The notes under the pieces are model-generated. The model was given only the letters and a program-made list of their open reading frames with translations. It ran no database searches and was not told the DNA's origin. Below, piece after piece: positions 9,042 through 48,943 of a DNA stretch of 64,000 bases. Source of the stretch: Dehalobacter sp. DCA (GTDB lineage Bacteria; Bacillota; Desulfitobacteriia; Desulfitobacteriales; Syntrophobotulaceae). The stretch lies in NCBI RefSeq assembly GCF_000305775.1, contig NC_018866.1, positions 1,488,001-1,552,000 on the forward strand. Direction: 5' to 3'. The translations under genes were made by a program, and so were the position numbers. How positions within the stretch are numbered: position 1 is the first letter of the stretch; each line of letters starts with the position of its first letter.

Positions 9042-9146
9042 GTCAGCGAGCCACAATACCGCTTTTCGGCCGTTGTGCCCTCCGTGGCACAAACGTCCGC
9101 GCTCCGCATCCATGCTCCGCTTGACGCGGAACTGTGGCTCGCTGAC
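9042..9146 (+). repeat. 105-bp structured repeat, copy A (forward)
   Basis: Exactly 105 bp, beginning GTC and ending GAC. A perfect 14-bp outer stem (GTCAGCGAGCCACA with TGTGGCTCGCTGAC) encloses an inner stem TTGTGCC/GGCACAA (near 9073-9092) and a third stem TCCGCG/CGCGGA (near 9096-9130). The core shares CCGCTTTTCGGC and TGCTCCGC blocks with the copies at 9300, 47422 and 47698. No plausible coding sequence runs through it. It lies in the mraY/murF gap and forms an inverted pair with copy B. Confidence 0.9.
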
Positions 9147-9299: not shown

Positions 9300-9404
9300 G
9301 TCTGCAGGCCACAGTTCCGCGAAAAGCGGAGCACGGATTGCGGAGCGCGGCATTTGCGCCATGGATGGCGCAATTCGCCGAAAAGCGGTATGTGGCCTGC
9401 AGAC
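9300..9404 (-). repeat. 105-bp structured repeat, copy B (reverse)
   Basis: Exactly 105 bp and inverted relative to copy A. Its outer stem is a perfect 14 bp (GTCTGCAGGCCACA with TGTGGCCTGCAGAC), and the stem sequence differs from copy A while remaining complementary. The inner stem is TTGCGCC/GGCGCAA, a compensatory change from copy A's TTGTGCC/GGCACAA. It is separated from copy A by 153 bp with no recognisable gene, and it ends 15 bp before the murF stop. Confidence 0.9.
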
Positions 9405-25582: not shown

Positions 25583-25928
25583 CACGTCCCCCCCTAAAAT
25601 GGATGTATGCAATCTATTTTCCATAAAAAGCACCAAATTCCTGCAAAAAAAACTTTTGCATAGTTTCTTAGAAAACAGGACACAATGATATTAGTCTCAC
25701 GTTTTCCAATTTTATCCCCACTCCTCTCTTTTCTTAACTTGCGGCAGATGGTCGCAAGTTTTTTTGTTATTTAACGGAAATATATAAATTAAAAATCATG
25801 TTGTTAGGGCCCCTTGTGTAATTATTTAACGAAAGTTGTACTAGCGTTTGATAATTCAGACATGCGGCTGGTTCAAGCGAATAGAATTAACCGAGTAATC
25901 TTATTCTGAAAAGCTGAAGGAGCTGCTG
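25583..25928. other. divergent intergenic region between tldD and the Na/Pi cotransporter gene
   Basis: 346 bp without a gene. On the minus strand it holds a sigma-H-like GCAGGAATT element near 25640-25650. On the plus strand it has a terminator-like hairpin at 25736-25766, about 160 bp before the cotransporter start. The rest is AT-rich with no other structure I can support. Confidence 0.6.
25736..25766 (+). terminator. terminator-like hairpin in the leader of the Na/Pi cotransporter gene
   Basis: A perfect 8-bp stem AACTTGCG/CGCAAGTT followed by a run of T (AAGTTTTTTTG) in the plus direction. No plus-strand gene lies upstream, so this is either an attenuator in a long leader or the end of an unseen small transcript. 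Confidence 0.6.
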
Positions 25929-44095: not shown

Positions 44096-45278
44096 ATAGA
44101 TTATCCTCCCCAAGAACGTACCGGGTTAGTTTCTCGGATGTAGCTGCATCAATATCATCCGGAACATTCTGTCCGTTTGTTAAATATGCAACAGGCAAAT
44201 TGGTCTTTGCCAGGAGATCAAGTATGGAACCGAGAGAAAAGCTCTCATCCAGCTTTGTTAAGATCAGATGCGTGGATAACCCATTGAACCTTTCGTAGAC
44301 TTTCATCTGGTCTGTCAGATTGGTCGTGACACTCATGACAAGCATTGTCAGGTCAGGTTTGGCCTTGTCCAAAAAAGCTTCCAGTTCATCCATATGAAGG
44401 TCGTGCTGTGGACTGCGTCCGGCTGTGTCAATAAAAATAAGTTCTTTGTCGGCATGGATATCAATCGCTTCCTTCAACCCTTCCGGCGTCATGACGACTT
44501 CAACGGGAACACCGATGATTTCTCCGAAAGTTCTGAGCTGTTCGACCGCCGCTACTCTGAATGTGTCGGCAGTCACCAGTGCCACCTTTCTTCTTTCAAT
44601 GATACTGAAACCGGCTGCAAGCTTCCCAATGGTTGTTGTTTTCCCGACTCCGGTGGGTCCTACCATCGCGACCACTAGTGTCCTGGATTTGCTAGGCCTG
44701 ATAACCTCGGTATTTGAACATAACCTTTCTACTTGATTTTTCAAAAGTTCAAATACTTTTGCATTGTTTTTCCACTGGTCTTCGGCAAGATCGTTTCTGA
44801 TAGGTTCGAGCAGCTCAGCGGCAGTCTCTCTGCTGGCACCTCTGTCCGTCAGAAAATTAACCCAGTGGGAGTAGGGTTTGGATTCAGCACTGCTGCTTAA
44901 GTCCCCTTTGGTGATATGCCCTTTGATTTCTTTTAGAATATTGTGCATCTGTTTGATTTCGGACTGGGCATCATCGGAAATACTCTGCTCTCTAGTGTTT
45001 TCATTTTCTTTTTCTCTGTAAGCTTCATAGGCCTTTTTTATCGCATCCGTATTAACGACTTTGACAGGTTCATCCTCCGCTGGCTTCATCGCGGCATAAT
45101 TTTGCTGTCTTTCTTCAATCGCTGCGGTAATTTCCACTTTTGTACGCGCAAAAAAGCCCAGGAATCCTCCTTCTTTAATCTGACGGGTCTGCAGAATCAC
45201 TGCCTCCGGCCCAAGCTCCCGTTTAATCTTCCCCATTGTATCTGCCACATTGTCACCGACGAACCGTTTCACCCTCAT
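44088..45278 (-). CDS. flhF: flagellar SRP-like GTPase FlhF
   Basis: A 396-residue SRP-family GTPase. The N-terminal B domain (KRFVGDNVADTMGKIKRELG) is followed by a charged linker and the NG domain with GPTGVGKTTTIGKLA (about residue 210), VTADTFRVAAVEQL, DTAGRSPQHD and LTKLDE. It recruits early flagellar components to the membrane and pairs with FlhG. It overlaps flhA by one base. Confidence 0.95.
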   Translation of the reverse strand: MRVKRFVGDNVADTMGKIKRELGPEAVILQTRQIKEGGFLGFFARTKVEITAAIEERQQNYAAMKPAEDEPVKVVNTDAIKKAYEAYREKENENTREQSISDDAQSEIKQMHNILKEIKGHITKGDLSSSAESKPYSHWVNFLTDRGASRETAAELLEPIRNDLAEDQWKNNAKVFELLKNQVERLCSNTEVIRPSKSRTLVVAMVGPTGVGKTTTIGKLAAGFSIIERRKVALVTADTFRVAAVEQLRTFGEIIGVPVEVVMTPEGLKEAIDIHADKELIFIDTAGRSPQHDLHMDELEAFLDKAKPDLTMLVMSVTTNLTDQMKVYERFNGLSTHLILTKLDESFSLGSILDLLAKTNLPVAYLTNGQNVPDDIDAATSEKLTRYVLGEDNLYA

Positions 45279-47341
45279 TAATCCAACACCACCATTCCAA
45301 GAGCCTGAACCTCTATTCCCTGTACAAGTTCATTATAAGACAGGATGACCAGGTGAGGAAGCTGACGCTCTGTCATTCTTTTTAAACTTATCCTGACCAC
45401 AGGAGCACACAACATTACGGGATTGTGTCCCTGCAGCATAATTTTTTCTACTTGAGCGCCTATCCTTTTTAAGAGCTTCTGTATGACATTCGGATCAATA
45501 TTCACGTAACTGCCGAAGTCCGAGGGGCGAAGATTATCCAAAATCATCTGCTCAATCTTGGGCTCAAGCGTAATTACCGGCAATTTTTTTTGAGGATTCA
45601 GGAAGGGCTGTACGATCTGGCGGGCCAAATTCTGCCGGACATATTCGGTGAGCCTGTCAATATCTTTTGTCAAAGGAGCACAATCAGCAAGCGTTTCCAG
45701 GATCGTCACCAGATCTTTAACCGATACTCTTTCCCGCAGCAGGTTGCTGAGTACCTTCTGAACCTGCCCTATACTAAGCAGGTCGGGAATAAGCTCTTCG
45801 ACAACTGCCGGCGACTGTTCCTTGGCATGATCAATTAATTTCTTCACATCCTGCCGGCTAATAATCTCATGGGCATGTGTTTTTAGAACTTCCGTCAGAT
45901 GGGTGGCGAGTACAGTCGGTGCATCGACCACGGTATACCCGGAAAGTTCAGCCTGCTCTCTGACCGACGCGTTAATCCATTTGGCATCAAGACCAAAGGC
46001 CGGTTCTTTTGTCGGAATGCCCTGGATGGAATCATCCTCAATCCCCCCACTGAAGGCCAGGTAATGATCGGTCATCAATTCCCCGGAAGCAACCTCGGCG
46101 CCTTTCAGTTTGATCGTATACTGATTCGGCTGTAGATTCATATTATCCCTGACCCTGATCACCGGAACGATAAATCCGAGTTCCCCGGCCAGCTGCCTGC
46201 GGATCAGAATAATCCTGTCCAGAAGGTCCCCGCCCTGACCGGCGTCAACCAGCGGAATCAGCGCATAGCCGATTTCCAGTTCCATATGATCAATTCCAAG
46301 CATATTCATTACATTTTCAGGCTTTTTGGTCTCGTCAATATCGCTTCTAACTGCTGCCTCCGATTCTTTCTTGGCTGCCTGAGCAGTGTTGCGCTGAAGG
46401 TAGTAACCCATTCCGGCTGTAGCGGTGGCGAACATCAGCATCGGTACCTGAGGCATGCCAAAAATTGCAAGAGCTACCAATACCCCAGAAGTAATATAAA
46501 GCGCCTTTGGAGTCCTGAACAGCTGTTTGGCCAGATCCTGCCCGAGGTTACTATCTGATGCAGCTCGGGTTACGATAAGGCCAGTAGCGGTTGAAATCAG
46601 CAGCGCCGGGATCTGGGTTACCAGACCGTCTCCGATCGTCAGCAGCGTGTAGGTGTATAGAGCGTCGGTGACCGCCATACCCTTGGTTACCATCCCGATA
46701 ATAAAGCCGCCGATAATGTTAATTAGCAGGATAATGATTGCCGCAATGGCATCCCCTTTGACAAACTTGCTAGCGCCGTCCATCGCACCGTAAAAATCTG
46801 CTTCCTGCTGGATATGCAGTCTTCGGGCTCTAGCTTCCTGATCCGTGATGATGCCGGCGTTCAGGTCGGCATCGATGCTCATCTGTTTCCCGGGCATTGC
46901 ATCCAGGGTAAAGCGGGCCCCAACTTCGGATACGCGTTCCGCACCTTTGGTGATGACCAGAAACTGTACCACGACCAGGATACAGAACACAATAAAGCCA
47001 ACAATCGGATTTCCCTGGATGACAAACTCTCCAAACTGCTGAATGACCTGCCCCGCCTCAGCCTCGAGTAAAATCAGTTTCGTCGTGGAAAGATTCAGGG
47101 CAAGTCGGAACAGTGTCATGGTCAGCAGCAAAGAAGGCAGTACGGAAAACTCCAGTGGATCCTTTGTAAAGACAGCCAGCAGAAGAATCAGAACTGATCC
47201 AGTAATGTTTAAGGTAATAAGAAAATCAAGCCAGCCTGCGGGTACGCCAATGACCATGACAACAATAATGCCGACAATGCTGATGGCTGCGATAATATCC
47301 GTATTTCTTGCTAATCTGCCCGCGCGAGTTGTCGTGGCCAT
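45278..47341 (-). CDS. flhA: flagellar export protein FlhA
   Basis: A 687-residue core subunit of the flagellar type III export gate. Eight transmembrane helices in the N-terminal half contain the FHIPEP region (RFTLDAMPGKQMSIDADLNA). The cytoplasmic domain that forms the substrate-docking ring follows. A GGAGG site precedes the ATG. In most relatives flhB ends just before flhA. Here 534 bp lie between them, including two 105-bp repeats. Confidence 0.97.
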   Translation of the reverse strand: MATTTRAGRLARNTDIIAAISIVGIIVVMVIGVPAGWLDFLITLNITGSVLILLLAVFTKDPLEFSVLPSLLLTMTLFRLALNLSTTKLILLEAEAGQVIQQFGEFVIQGNPIVGFIVFCILVVVQFLVITKGAERVSEVGARFTLDAMPGKQMSIDADLNAGIITDQEARARRLHIQQEADFYGAMDGASKFVKGDAIAAIIILLINIIGGFIIGMVTKGMAVTDALYTYTLLTIGDGLVTQIPALLISTATGLIVTRAASDSNLGQDLAKQLFRTPKALYITSGVLVALAIFGMPQVPMLMFATATAGMGYYLQRNTAQAAKKESEAAVRSDIDETKKPENVMNMLGIDHMELEIGYALIPLVDAGQGGDLLDRIILIRRQLAGELGFIVPVIRVRDNMNLQPNQYTIKLKGAEVASGELMTDHYLAFSGGIEDDSIQGIPTKEPAFGLDAKWINASVREQAELSGYTVVDAPTVLATHLTEVLKTHAHEIISRQDVKKLIDHAKEQSPAVVEELIPDLLSIGQVQKVLSNLLRERVSVKDLVTILETLADCAPLTKDIDRLTEYVRQNLARQIVQPFLNPQKKLPVITLEPKIEQMILDNLRPSDFGSYVNIDPNVIQKLLKRIGAQVEKIMLQGHNPVMLCAPVVRISLKRMTERQLPHLVILSYNELVQGIEVQALGMVVLD

Positions 47342-47421
47342 GATGCAGTATCCTCCTGTTTCTTAATTCAGTGTTTTGCGATGATGATATTAGATCTATT
47401 CAAAAAAAGCTTTTGGGGTAG

Positions 47422-47526
47422 GTCTCCGTAATATATAGCCGCTTTCGGCCGTTGCATCCTCCTTGACGCAAAAGGCCGCGCTTCGCACTCCATGCTCCGC
47501 TGACGCTGGCTATATATTACGGAGAC
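47422..47526 (+). repeat. 105-bp structured repeat, copy C (forward)
   Basis: Exactly 105 bp from GTC to GAC. It has the longest outer stem of the family, a perfect 18 bp (GTCTCCGTAATATATAGC with GCTATATATTACGGAG plus AC). The stem sequence is completely unlike copies A, B and D beyond the GTC/GAC ends, while the core still carries CCGCTTTCGGCCGTTG, CCGCGCTTCGCA and CATGCTCCGC. Located 81 bp upstream of the flhA start, in the flhB/flhA gap. Confidence 0.88.
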
Positions 47527-47697
47527 TTATCTCTGACGCTATCTTTGTTTGGGTATTTCTCCAAGAAGAATGCTGCTTGCGTATTCTCATAGCTTGGAAT
47601 GGATCTACAAACACAATACTCTTCAAATAACTACTAAGCTGATTAGAAAGCATAAACAATCTTCGGGATAAGACTTACATAAGCAATCATAAGATCA

Positions 47698-47802
47698 GTC
47701 TGGGGGCCACAGTTCCGCTGTGAGCGGAGCAGGATTGCGTAGCGCGGCCTTTTGTGCTATGGATGGCACAACGGCCGAAAAGCGGTATTGTGGCCCACAG
47801 AC
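47698..47802 (-). repeat. 105-bp structured repeat, copy D (reverse)
   Basis: Exactly 105 bp, inverted relative to copy C and 171 bp from it. Outer stem of 14 bp with one mismatch (GTCTGGGGGCCACA with TGTGGCCCACAGAC). Its reverse complement is very close to copy A through the core (ACAATACCGCTTTTCGGCC, GTTGTGCC), so the two operon sites hold members of one family. It ends 74 bp before the flhB stop. Confidence 0.9.
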
Positions 47803-47875
47803 TTGCCCTAACATAATGGTTTTGTATATACAAGAAGTTAAGTCAACAAGTAATTTTACATGCAGTGCTAGTCCT

Positions 47876-48943
47876 CTACGCGGAATAGGATCGTCTCTTT
47901 TTGTTAAGACGGAAGACAAACGCTAGGACTTCGGCGACTGCCTTGTATAATTCCCTTGGCACGGACTGCCCAAGCTCAACCTGGGAATAAAGCGTTCTGG
48001 CCAAAGGCTTGTTTTCCATAATCACAATGTTGTTTTCCTCGGCGACCGCCCTGATTCTTAAAGCTATTTCATTCTGCCCTTTGGCGACGACATAGGGAGC
48101 AGGATATTTGGCTGTATCATACTTCAGGGCGACTGCATAATGTGTCGGGTTCGTAATAACAACATCGGCCTGCTTGAGATCCTCCATCATTCTGCGCATG
48201 GCCATCATGCGCTGGCGTTTCTTAATCTGGCTCTTAATGAGCGGATCTCCCTCAGTCTGTTTATATTCTTCTTTGATTTCTTCTTGGGACATTCTGAGGT
48301 TTTTCTCATAGTCCCACCATTGATAAAGGAAATCGGCAAATGCAATAACCAGAAAGGCCAGCGCTATTTTCCAGGCCATTTCAAACAACAACCCGCTTAG
48401 GAAAATGAGGGACTGACCAACTTCTGCTCCTTGCAGTGCCGAAAATACATCAATGTTTTTTCGAATGACATCGATAAGAAAATAACCAATCACCAGCACT
48501 TTGAACAAGGACTTAACCAAATTGACCAGGGCCTTTAGACCAAACATTCTTTTGACCCCTTCAACAGGACTCATTCTTGAGAATTTCGGGATCATAGGCT
48601 CGGTAATGAACACCGGCCCCGTTTGCAGAAAATTTACGGCAAAGGCGATCACCAGCGCGGCAGCAAATACCGGAGCCAGGATCAGCAGGCACTGCCAGGA
48701 AACATCGATGACAACCTTCCAGAGGGACTGAACATTCCAGTCCACGGAGAGACTTGCTGTATACGTAAAAATGTTAGCTAACCTTTGAAACACATATGGC
48801 AGCCATATTTTCAGCAAACCGATAATTGCCAGAAGCATTACCGCCGAAGTCAGTTCCTGACTTTTAAGTATCTGGCCTTTTTTACGAGCGTCCTGCTTTT
48901 TCTTGGGAGTCGCCGGGAACCTTTTCTCAGCTATACACTCCAC
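47876..48943 (-). CDS. flhB: flagellar export switch protein FlhB
   Basis: A 355-residue export-gate protein. The N-terminus TPKKKQDARKKGQILKSQEL leads into four transmembrane helices. The cytoplasmic domain carries the autocleavage motif NPTHYAVALKYD (about residue 265), which governs the substrate switch with FliK. The GTG at 48943 lies inside the 3' end of fliR, giving a 13-bp overlap. The exact start is uncertain because fliR and flhB signals are superimposed. Confidence 0.95.
   Translation of the reverse strand: MECIAEKRFPATPKKKQDARKKGQILKSQELTSAVMLLAIIGLLKIWLPYVFQRLANIFTYTASLSVDWNVQSLWKVVIDVSWQCLLILAPVFAAALVIAFAVNFLQTGPVFITEPMIPKFSRMSPVEGVKRMFGLKALVNLVKSLFKVLVIGYFLIDVIRKNIDVFSALQGAEVGQSLIFLSGLLFEMAWKIALAFLVIAFADFLYQWWDYEKNLRMSQEEIKEEYKQTEGDPLIKSQIKKRQRMMAMRRMMEDLKQADVVITNPTHYAVALKYDTAKYPAPYVVAKGQNEIALRIRAVAEENNIVIMENKPLARTLYSQVELGQSVPRELYKAVAEVLAFVFRLNKKRRSYSA

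Follow-up and report, generated by a model that had tools for sequence, protein, structure and literature searches.

Two inverted palindromes between flhB and flhA

In Dehalobacter sp. DCA, the gap between flhB and flhA, two genes of a flagellar operon, contains two palindromic repeats in opposite orientation, named C and D. They raise the question of what such repeats are, and whether the pair or each of its members is the unit that functions or moves. With moderate confidence, we regard C and D as the centres of two old IS630-type MITEs placed back to back, with a TwoAYGGAY-like RNA that would be a target of CsrA. The window, i.e. the whole stretch of 64,000 nucleotides that was analysed, corresponds to positions 1488001–1552000 of the single 3,069,953-bp contig of this genome (G000), and contains a second pair of the same family, A and B. 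Positions in the lists are those of the window.

47422..47526, plus strand (forward): palindrome C, 105 nt, imperfect, outer stem GTCTCCGTAATATATAGCC/GGCTATATATTACGGAGAC around the family core
47698..47802, minus strand (reverse): palindrome D, 105 nt, imperfect, outer stem GTCTGTGGGCCACA/TGTGGCCCCCAGAC, type X, around the family core
9042..9146, plus strand (forward): palindrome A, first member of the other pair in the window
9300..9404, minus strand (reverse): palindrome B, second member of the A/B pair

The coordinates and orientation proposed by a sequence-only reading of this locus are borne out: C and D are an inverted pair enclosing 171 bp (47527–47697), and the same forward-reverse layout is present 38 kb away in A and B, with an inner gap of 153 bp. 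The two spacers, said to share no clear identity, are nevertheless alike in kind, both being built from the inner, right arms of two elements. C and D have the core in common, which aligns as inverted copies (80% over 49 nt), while their outer stems are unlike. The outer stem of C consists of GTCTCCGTAATATATAGCC and its exact complement (type Y), that of D of GTCTGTGGGCCACA and a nearly matching arm (type X). Folded singly, C and D form hairpins with z-scores of -6.3 and -6.4, respectively, and none of 200 shuffles was as good. In the following, the 15 pair loci of the genome are numbered from i0 in genome order, C/D being i8 and A/B being i7.

Copy number, polarity and spacing

The core pattern has 69 matches in the 3.07-Mb genome, compared to 3 for a reversed control. 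The family thus has about 70 copies, or around 80 when BLAST matches and fragments are included. Among neighbours at most 600 bp apart, 15 are in forward-reverse, none in reverse-forward and none in tandem arrangement. In a simulation confined to 15% of the genome, random placement gave a mean of 0.9 forward-reverse pairs and a maximum of 6 in 2000 runs, so the polarity, seen in 15 of 15 cases, is real. The spacing is loose, with core-to-core distances of 110–415 bp and gaps between palindromes of 21–325 bp. The genome-wide listing therefore confirms the expected forward-reverse polarity, but not an enrichment at 150–175 bp; of the random orientation and spacing named as the contrary outcome, only the random spacing was found.

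In the related genomes G001 and G002, close neighbours are again mostly forward-reverse (seven, with no reverse-forward and two tandem cases, i.e. 7/9, in G001; 15, none and one, i.e. 15/16 as counted by hand, in G002). In G004, which belongs to the genus but is less closely related, the core pattern reveals no forward-reverse, two reverse-forward and two tandem neighbours. The polarity is thus a property of the clade formed by G000 and its close relatives.

The copies are unevenly distributed over the chromosome: none are present from 1,535,817 to 2,018,598, against a mean spacing of about 40 kb. In other genera of the same family the repeat is patchy, occurring in 4 of 11 (G007–G010 and G021); the copies of G021 have different flanks and, in the bases read, no obvious CTAG TIR. 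Five copies of G000 (251555, 517310, 757945, 773870 and 2679457) have extra stem types, CGTCATGTA or CGTATCTTCGTAACCG, around the same core, and several of these five share a 3' flank like ATTAAGCCATCATATAAAGAATG.

Structure and mobility of the element

The anatomy of the element is best seen in G004, where six copies (L050–L054 and L062) of about 215 bp, CTAGTACAACGTTCTCTAAAT...GAATGCTGTACTAG, are inserted at CTAG. They are nearly identical and therefore recent. Their shared part runs from CTAGTACAACGTTCTCTAAATACC through the central palindrome to GAATGCTGTACTAG; CTAG flanks both sides of all of them except L050, where it is imperfect (CTAA/CTAT). With TIRs of 17–21 nt, a short length and no coding capacity, the unit is a MITE, probably of IS630 type, and its TIR has 77 matches in G004, against none for the reversed control. 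Each unit bounded by TIRs and CTAG holds one palindrome, which argues that the single-palindrome MITE is what moves. In G000, each palindrome likewise forms the centre of a MITE of about 220–270 bp with CTAG targets, and intact single MITEs are present at 2132969 and 2255157.

G004 also contains three identical 1.23-kb IS630-type copies (DDE_3 plus HTH), ending in or beginning with CTAGTACAGTGTTAAATCTAAA and also located at CTAG; there are four DDE_3 matches in that genome. Mobilisation of the MITEs by an IS630-type enzyme is our best inference. Two observations weigh against the preferred reading here: the TIR of the G004 IS630 element is only partly like that of the MITE (CTAG and TACA..GTT..TCTAAA), and a search of G000, G001 and G004 for an autonomous element with the MITE's own TIR (at most three mismatches) gave only MITE-sized spacings. 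G000 has no match to DDE_3, the IS630-type transposase, so mobility there is past or lost. An IS630-type transposase, no longer detectable here, would have acted in trans in an ancestor, moving single MITEs and perhaps fused pairs too.

In the stretch L134 of G004, an IS630-type insertion (867–2100) and a palindrome MITE (2096–2360) lie side by side with a common junction at CTAG. In the window, a lone CTAGTACAACTTTCGTTAAAT at 25824–25844, two mismatches away from the MITE TIR and also present in G001, has no adjoining palindrome core in the bases read.

Intergenic palindromes in inverted pairs are also found as REP dimers, REPINs and BIMEs, among which certain pair polarities are strongly preferred (PMC3733652). 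REPs differ in being 20–40 bp long with GTAG or CGTC tags, the GTAG REPs occurring with a RAYT. That the present family should be of the REP/REPIN type and moved by a Y1 (RAYT) transposase is highly improbable: its units are branched palindromes of about 105 nt within MITEs bounded by TIRs and CTAG, and the Y1 transposase domain (Y1_Tnp, PF01797) has no match in G000.

The junction of the two elements

Applied to the flhB-flhA gap, the MITE anatomy gives the following arrangement.

45278..47341, minus strand: flhA (FHIPEP; PF00771, E 1e-275)
47390..47608, plus strand: MITE with palindrome C, 219 bp, left end TTAGATCTATTCAA (at 47390), right end TTGGAATGGATCTAC (to 47608), type Y stem
47605..47608, no strand: CTAC, a degenerate CTAG common to the right ends of both MITEs
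47605..47871, minus strand: MITE with palindrome D, about 267 bp, outer end CTAG at 47868–47871; a tentative assignment
47876..48943, minus strand: flhB (Bac_export_2; PF01312, E 7e-131)

The two MITEs fill 482 of the 534 bp of the gap; the start codon of flhA is 81 nt downstream of palindrome C, and flhB ends 4 bp outside the D MITE. The ends of the C MITE are inverted (11 of 14 positions complementary). Its bounds rest on sequence, on the right-arm consensus and on the abutment at better-preserved loci of the same kind, and its length fits that of the G004 MITEs. On its outer side, the D MITE has a weakly preserved TIR, which speaks against the preferred reading. The C and D MITEs have their right ends together, at a single CTAG-like site. 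At i9 and i12, the overlap of the right arms is precisely the 4-bp CTAG, at i1 and i4 the MITEs directly adjoin each other by their right ends, and at i2 the abutment is probably also of this type, with one CTAG. In the best-preserved copies of i1, i4, i9 and i12, the inner lengths are 134–138 bp. This repeated right-to-right junction is what the previously described pair consists of. Under independent insertion it would be expected in one quarter of cases; a composite element may lie behind it, or else a directional process.

It is conceivable, if rather improbable, that the pair itself is the transposing unit, a composite double MITE bounded by outer left TIRs in a REPIN- or BIME-like layout, of which the single elements would be remnants. 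Such a unit fits the polarity of all 15 pairs, the recurrent junction with its one shared CTAG and inner lengths of 134–138 bp, and the collapse of some G000 pairs to one palindrome in G001 or G003. It agrees less well with the recent copies of G004, which are single MITEs in a genome where the core pattern finds no forward-reverse pair, or with the intact single MITEs of G000. The outer arms also differ among pairs and several have been lost, and no locus was seen with the whole pair in one species and a clean absence in another. The proposal that the pair is the functional or mobile unit is partly supported: it holds as to recurrence and polarity (in G000, G001 and G002), less clearly as to a mobile pair. 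A composite origin of the pairs is suggested by the shared 4-bp CTAG at i1, i4, i9 and i12, while single palindromes that are exchanged or lost as the neighbour stays argue against a composite unit. Copying of one member as the origin of the pairs was ruled out, the members often being of different stem type (Y and X).

Age, exchange and collapse of the loci

The flanks of all 15 pairs are present in G001 and G002, and most of them in G003. In these relatives, the pair sites are occupied by intact, reduced or collapsed pairs. Given these occupied sites, and no detectable IS630-type or Y1 transposase in G000, the elements look old and immobile here. Palindrome D matches a copy from a different locus at 97%, but its own orthologues at values down to 83%, and the orthologue of C in G001 is of the long form. 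Between species, single palindromes have been exchanged or lost within a locus with the neighbour retained; differences of this sort at one site are typical of exchange. At orthologous sites, the stems change on both sides together. Pairs i2, i7 and i13 have collapsed, in G001 or G003, to one palindrome made from two left halves, with differing breakpoints. The opposite direction, in which the collapsed state would be ancestral and the inner part an insert, is less likely, since the three collapse junctions are at different positions. At present the loci are fixed, changing chiefly by exchange of palindromes among copies and by collapse of pairs to one palindrome.

The collapsed pairs (L100, L119, L092 and L097, from i13, i2 and i7) preserve a natural trace of how inverted repeats undergo deletion between them. 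In the orthologues of G000 2740792–2740960 (L101, L112 and L086, from G001–G003), one palindrome is nested in the stem of another; G000 itself looks like a deletion derivative there, with a core-less remnant hairpin alongside. A long variant of the palindrome (L018, L024, L036 and others, for example at G000 652471, 898257 and 2119881) has about 50 extra nucleotides in the core and more ANGGA hairpins, and long and short forms alternate between species at the same locus.

Covariation of the stems and the GGA loops

The stems show strong covariation. Across 37 different stems of type X, 92.1% of the cells in the outer 14 pairs are paired, both sides have changed in 42 cells versus 13.8 in shuffles, and the covariation score is 0.209 versus 0.074; sliding the partner by 1–3 columns destroys the signal. 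An alignment of 27 whole palindromes contains compensatory changes at 17 of 36 consensus pairs.

At the gathering threshold, Rfam has no match in the window, and near the G004 copies it has only riboswitches. Below it, cmscan of the C/D region aligned the whole TwoAYGGAY model (RF01731) with C on the minus strand, at a score of 27.3 bits (E 0.038). In 4.5 kb containing other copies, the sole matches with E<1 were three more to TwoAYGGAY, in the same register. The four matches score 25.6–27.3 bits, all well below the gathering score of 43, which counts against the preferred reading; the palindrome is for that reason not filed as RF01731. The architecture of RF01731, an outer stem and two hairpins with AYGGAY loops, is present, with the first loop degenerate (ACGAT) in about 13 copies. 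On the strand opposite to the forward one, at least one predicted hairpin loop contains ANGGA in 62 of 69 copies, on the other strand in none of 69; for shuffles, the figure is 4.9%. Across an alignment of 51 copies, the consensus of the second loop is C (94%), A (96%), N, G (100%), G (96%), A (98%), N, G (96%), the N positions being free. CsrA and RsmE bind ANGGA in hairpin loops. In sequence, the loop C-A-N-GGA-N-G has the form of a CsrA site, and its fixed letters around varying N positions are the pattern expected of a protein-binding RNA loop. As the copies are homologous, the shared loops partly reflect descent.

47460..47464, minus strand: loop AAGGA (ANGGA), second hairpin of C, on the sense strand of flhB-flhA
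47489..47493, minus strand: loop ATGGA (ANGGA), first hairpin of C, on the sense strand of flhB-flhA
47759..47763, plus strand: loop ATGGA (ANGGA) of D, antisense to the flhB-flhA operon

D has only this one ANGGA loop, another point against the preferred reading. The csrA gene (PF02599) is located at 1581062–1581217 of G000 and is also present in G001–G004. The form of the loops suggests that CsrA may bind the palindrome RNA, and TwoAYGGAY has been predicted to bind CsrA on the same ground in a 2014 analysis (PMC4333381). The transcript of the strand opposite to the forward one would be a TwoAYGGAY-like RNA, offering CsrA one or two hairpins with GGA in the loop (up to four in the long form).

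The palindromes might instead be DNA structures only, serving as transposase recognition sites or cruciforms, with stems kept paired by template-switch correction and exchange and with GGA loops that have no RNA function. We find this doubtful. Exchange is evident from the likeness of D to a copy at another locus, the two stem sides do change together at orthologous sites, and the copies show no transcriptional orientation bias (see below), all of which would agree with it. Pairing correction or descent alone do not predict a loop conserved at 94–100% in C-A-(N)-GGA-(N)-G with its N positions free. The inverted pair is real and statistically strong, and partly what the sequence-only reading had in mind; our preferred reading is of a family that works like an IS630-type MITE and has a core evolving like a TwoAYGGAY or CsrA-site RNA.

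Genomic context and possible function

The copies are intergenic. Going by crude ORF calls, no more than roughly 2 of 58 loci have divergent genes on their two sides, and 12 of the 15 pairs are flanked by co-directional ones. In co-directional gaps with a single copy, the orientations are divided evenly, 15 sense and 15 antisense, so there is no visible selection for transcription in the direction of the CsrA site. In sense orientation, a copy like C, ahead of flhA, could turn the mRNA into a target or a decoy for CsrA; the regulatory role of any single copy is putative. A canonical terminator or promoter role was rejected: no promoter match was obtained, and the only terminator-like site was one of five pairs inside D, at the rate of shuffled sequence.

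The polarity could also stem from selection or stability and not from transposition, if recombination deletes tandems and if a sense hairpin is favoured near the downstream start and an antisense one near the upstream stop. Loss of direct repeats is indeed expected, the prevalence of co-directional gaps among the pairs and the rarity of divergent ones are in line with it, and G004, a younger population, does have tandems and reverse-forward pairs. Yet single copies lack a sense or antisense bias, and while stability would explain the absence of tandems, it does not account for one inverted arrangement having 15 cases and the other 0. We consider this origin of the polarity unlikely.

Comparison with known systems

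A literature search for palindromic repeats in Dehalobacter found none, and searches on DUF3800 and on CsrA and MITEs returned nothing relevant; MITEs and CsrA-binding RNAs are already known separately. The closest RNA is TwoAYGGAY, which occurs in Clostridiales and is predicted to bind CsrA (PMC4333381); a screen of 2010 judged the motif to be a probable RNA, but not cis-regulatory (PMC2864571). The palindromes resemble it in having a poorly conserved outer stem around two hairpins with AYGGAY or ANGGA, in the same order and register, and differ from it in being a high-copy repeat borne by MITEs, with a 50-nt insertion variant containing extra GGA hairpins. If the core of the MITE is an RNA of this type, this would help to explain an orphan motif.

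As small, intergenic, folded MITEs, the elements also resemble BOX and RUP, an IS630-related MITE of S. pneumoniae, the TIRs of which resemble those of IS630-Spn1 (PMC3049150). RUP is a simple 107-bp repeat, whereas the elements described here measure about 220–270 bp, have a branched core like that of an RNA, contain GGA loops and occur in back-to-back pairs; no matching autonomous IS630 was found in G000.

With several GGA-in-loop hairpins per RNA, the palindromes can further be compared to the sponge RNAs CsrB, CsrC and RsmX/Y/Z, which, when one analysis (PMC4333381) was made, were known from Gammaproteobacteria alone. Those are products of dedicated sRNA genes, unlike the dispersed intergenic repeats seen here. 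Since about 70 palindromes are scattered over G000, and others over its close relatives, transposition may have spread regulator-like RNA sites. Speculatively, a transposon family might have dispersed dozens of CsrA-binding hairpins over intergenic regions of Dehalobacter-like bacteria, as a sponge in trans or by recruiting operons, such as the flagellar one with flhA, to the CsrA regulon in cis, and TwoAYGGAY might be a MITE-derived CsrA ligand of the Firmicutes. If true, this would show concretely how a transposon can spread the binding sites of a global post-transcriptional regulator. Having about 70 sites in each genome, the family allows a direct test of the prediction that CsrA-binding RNAs exist outside Gammaproteobacteria (PMC4333381).
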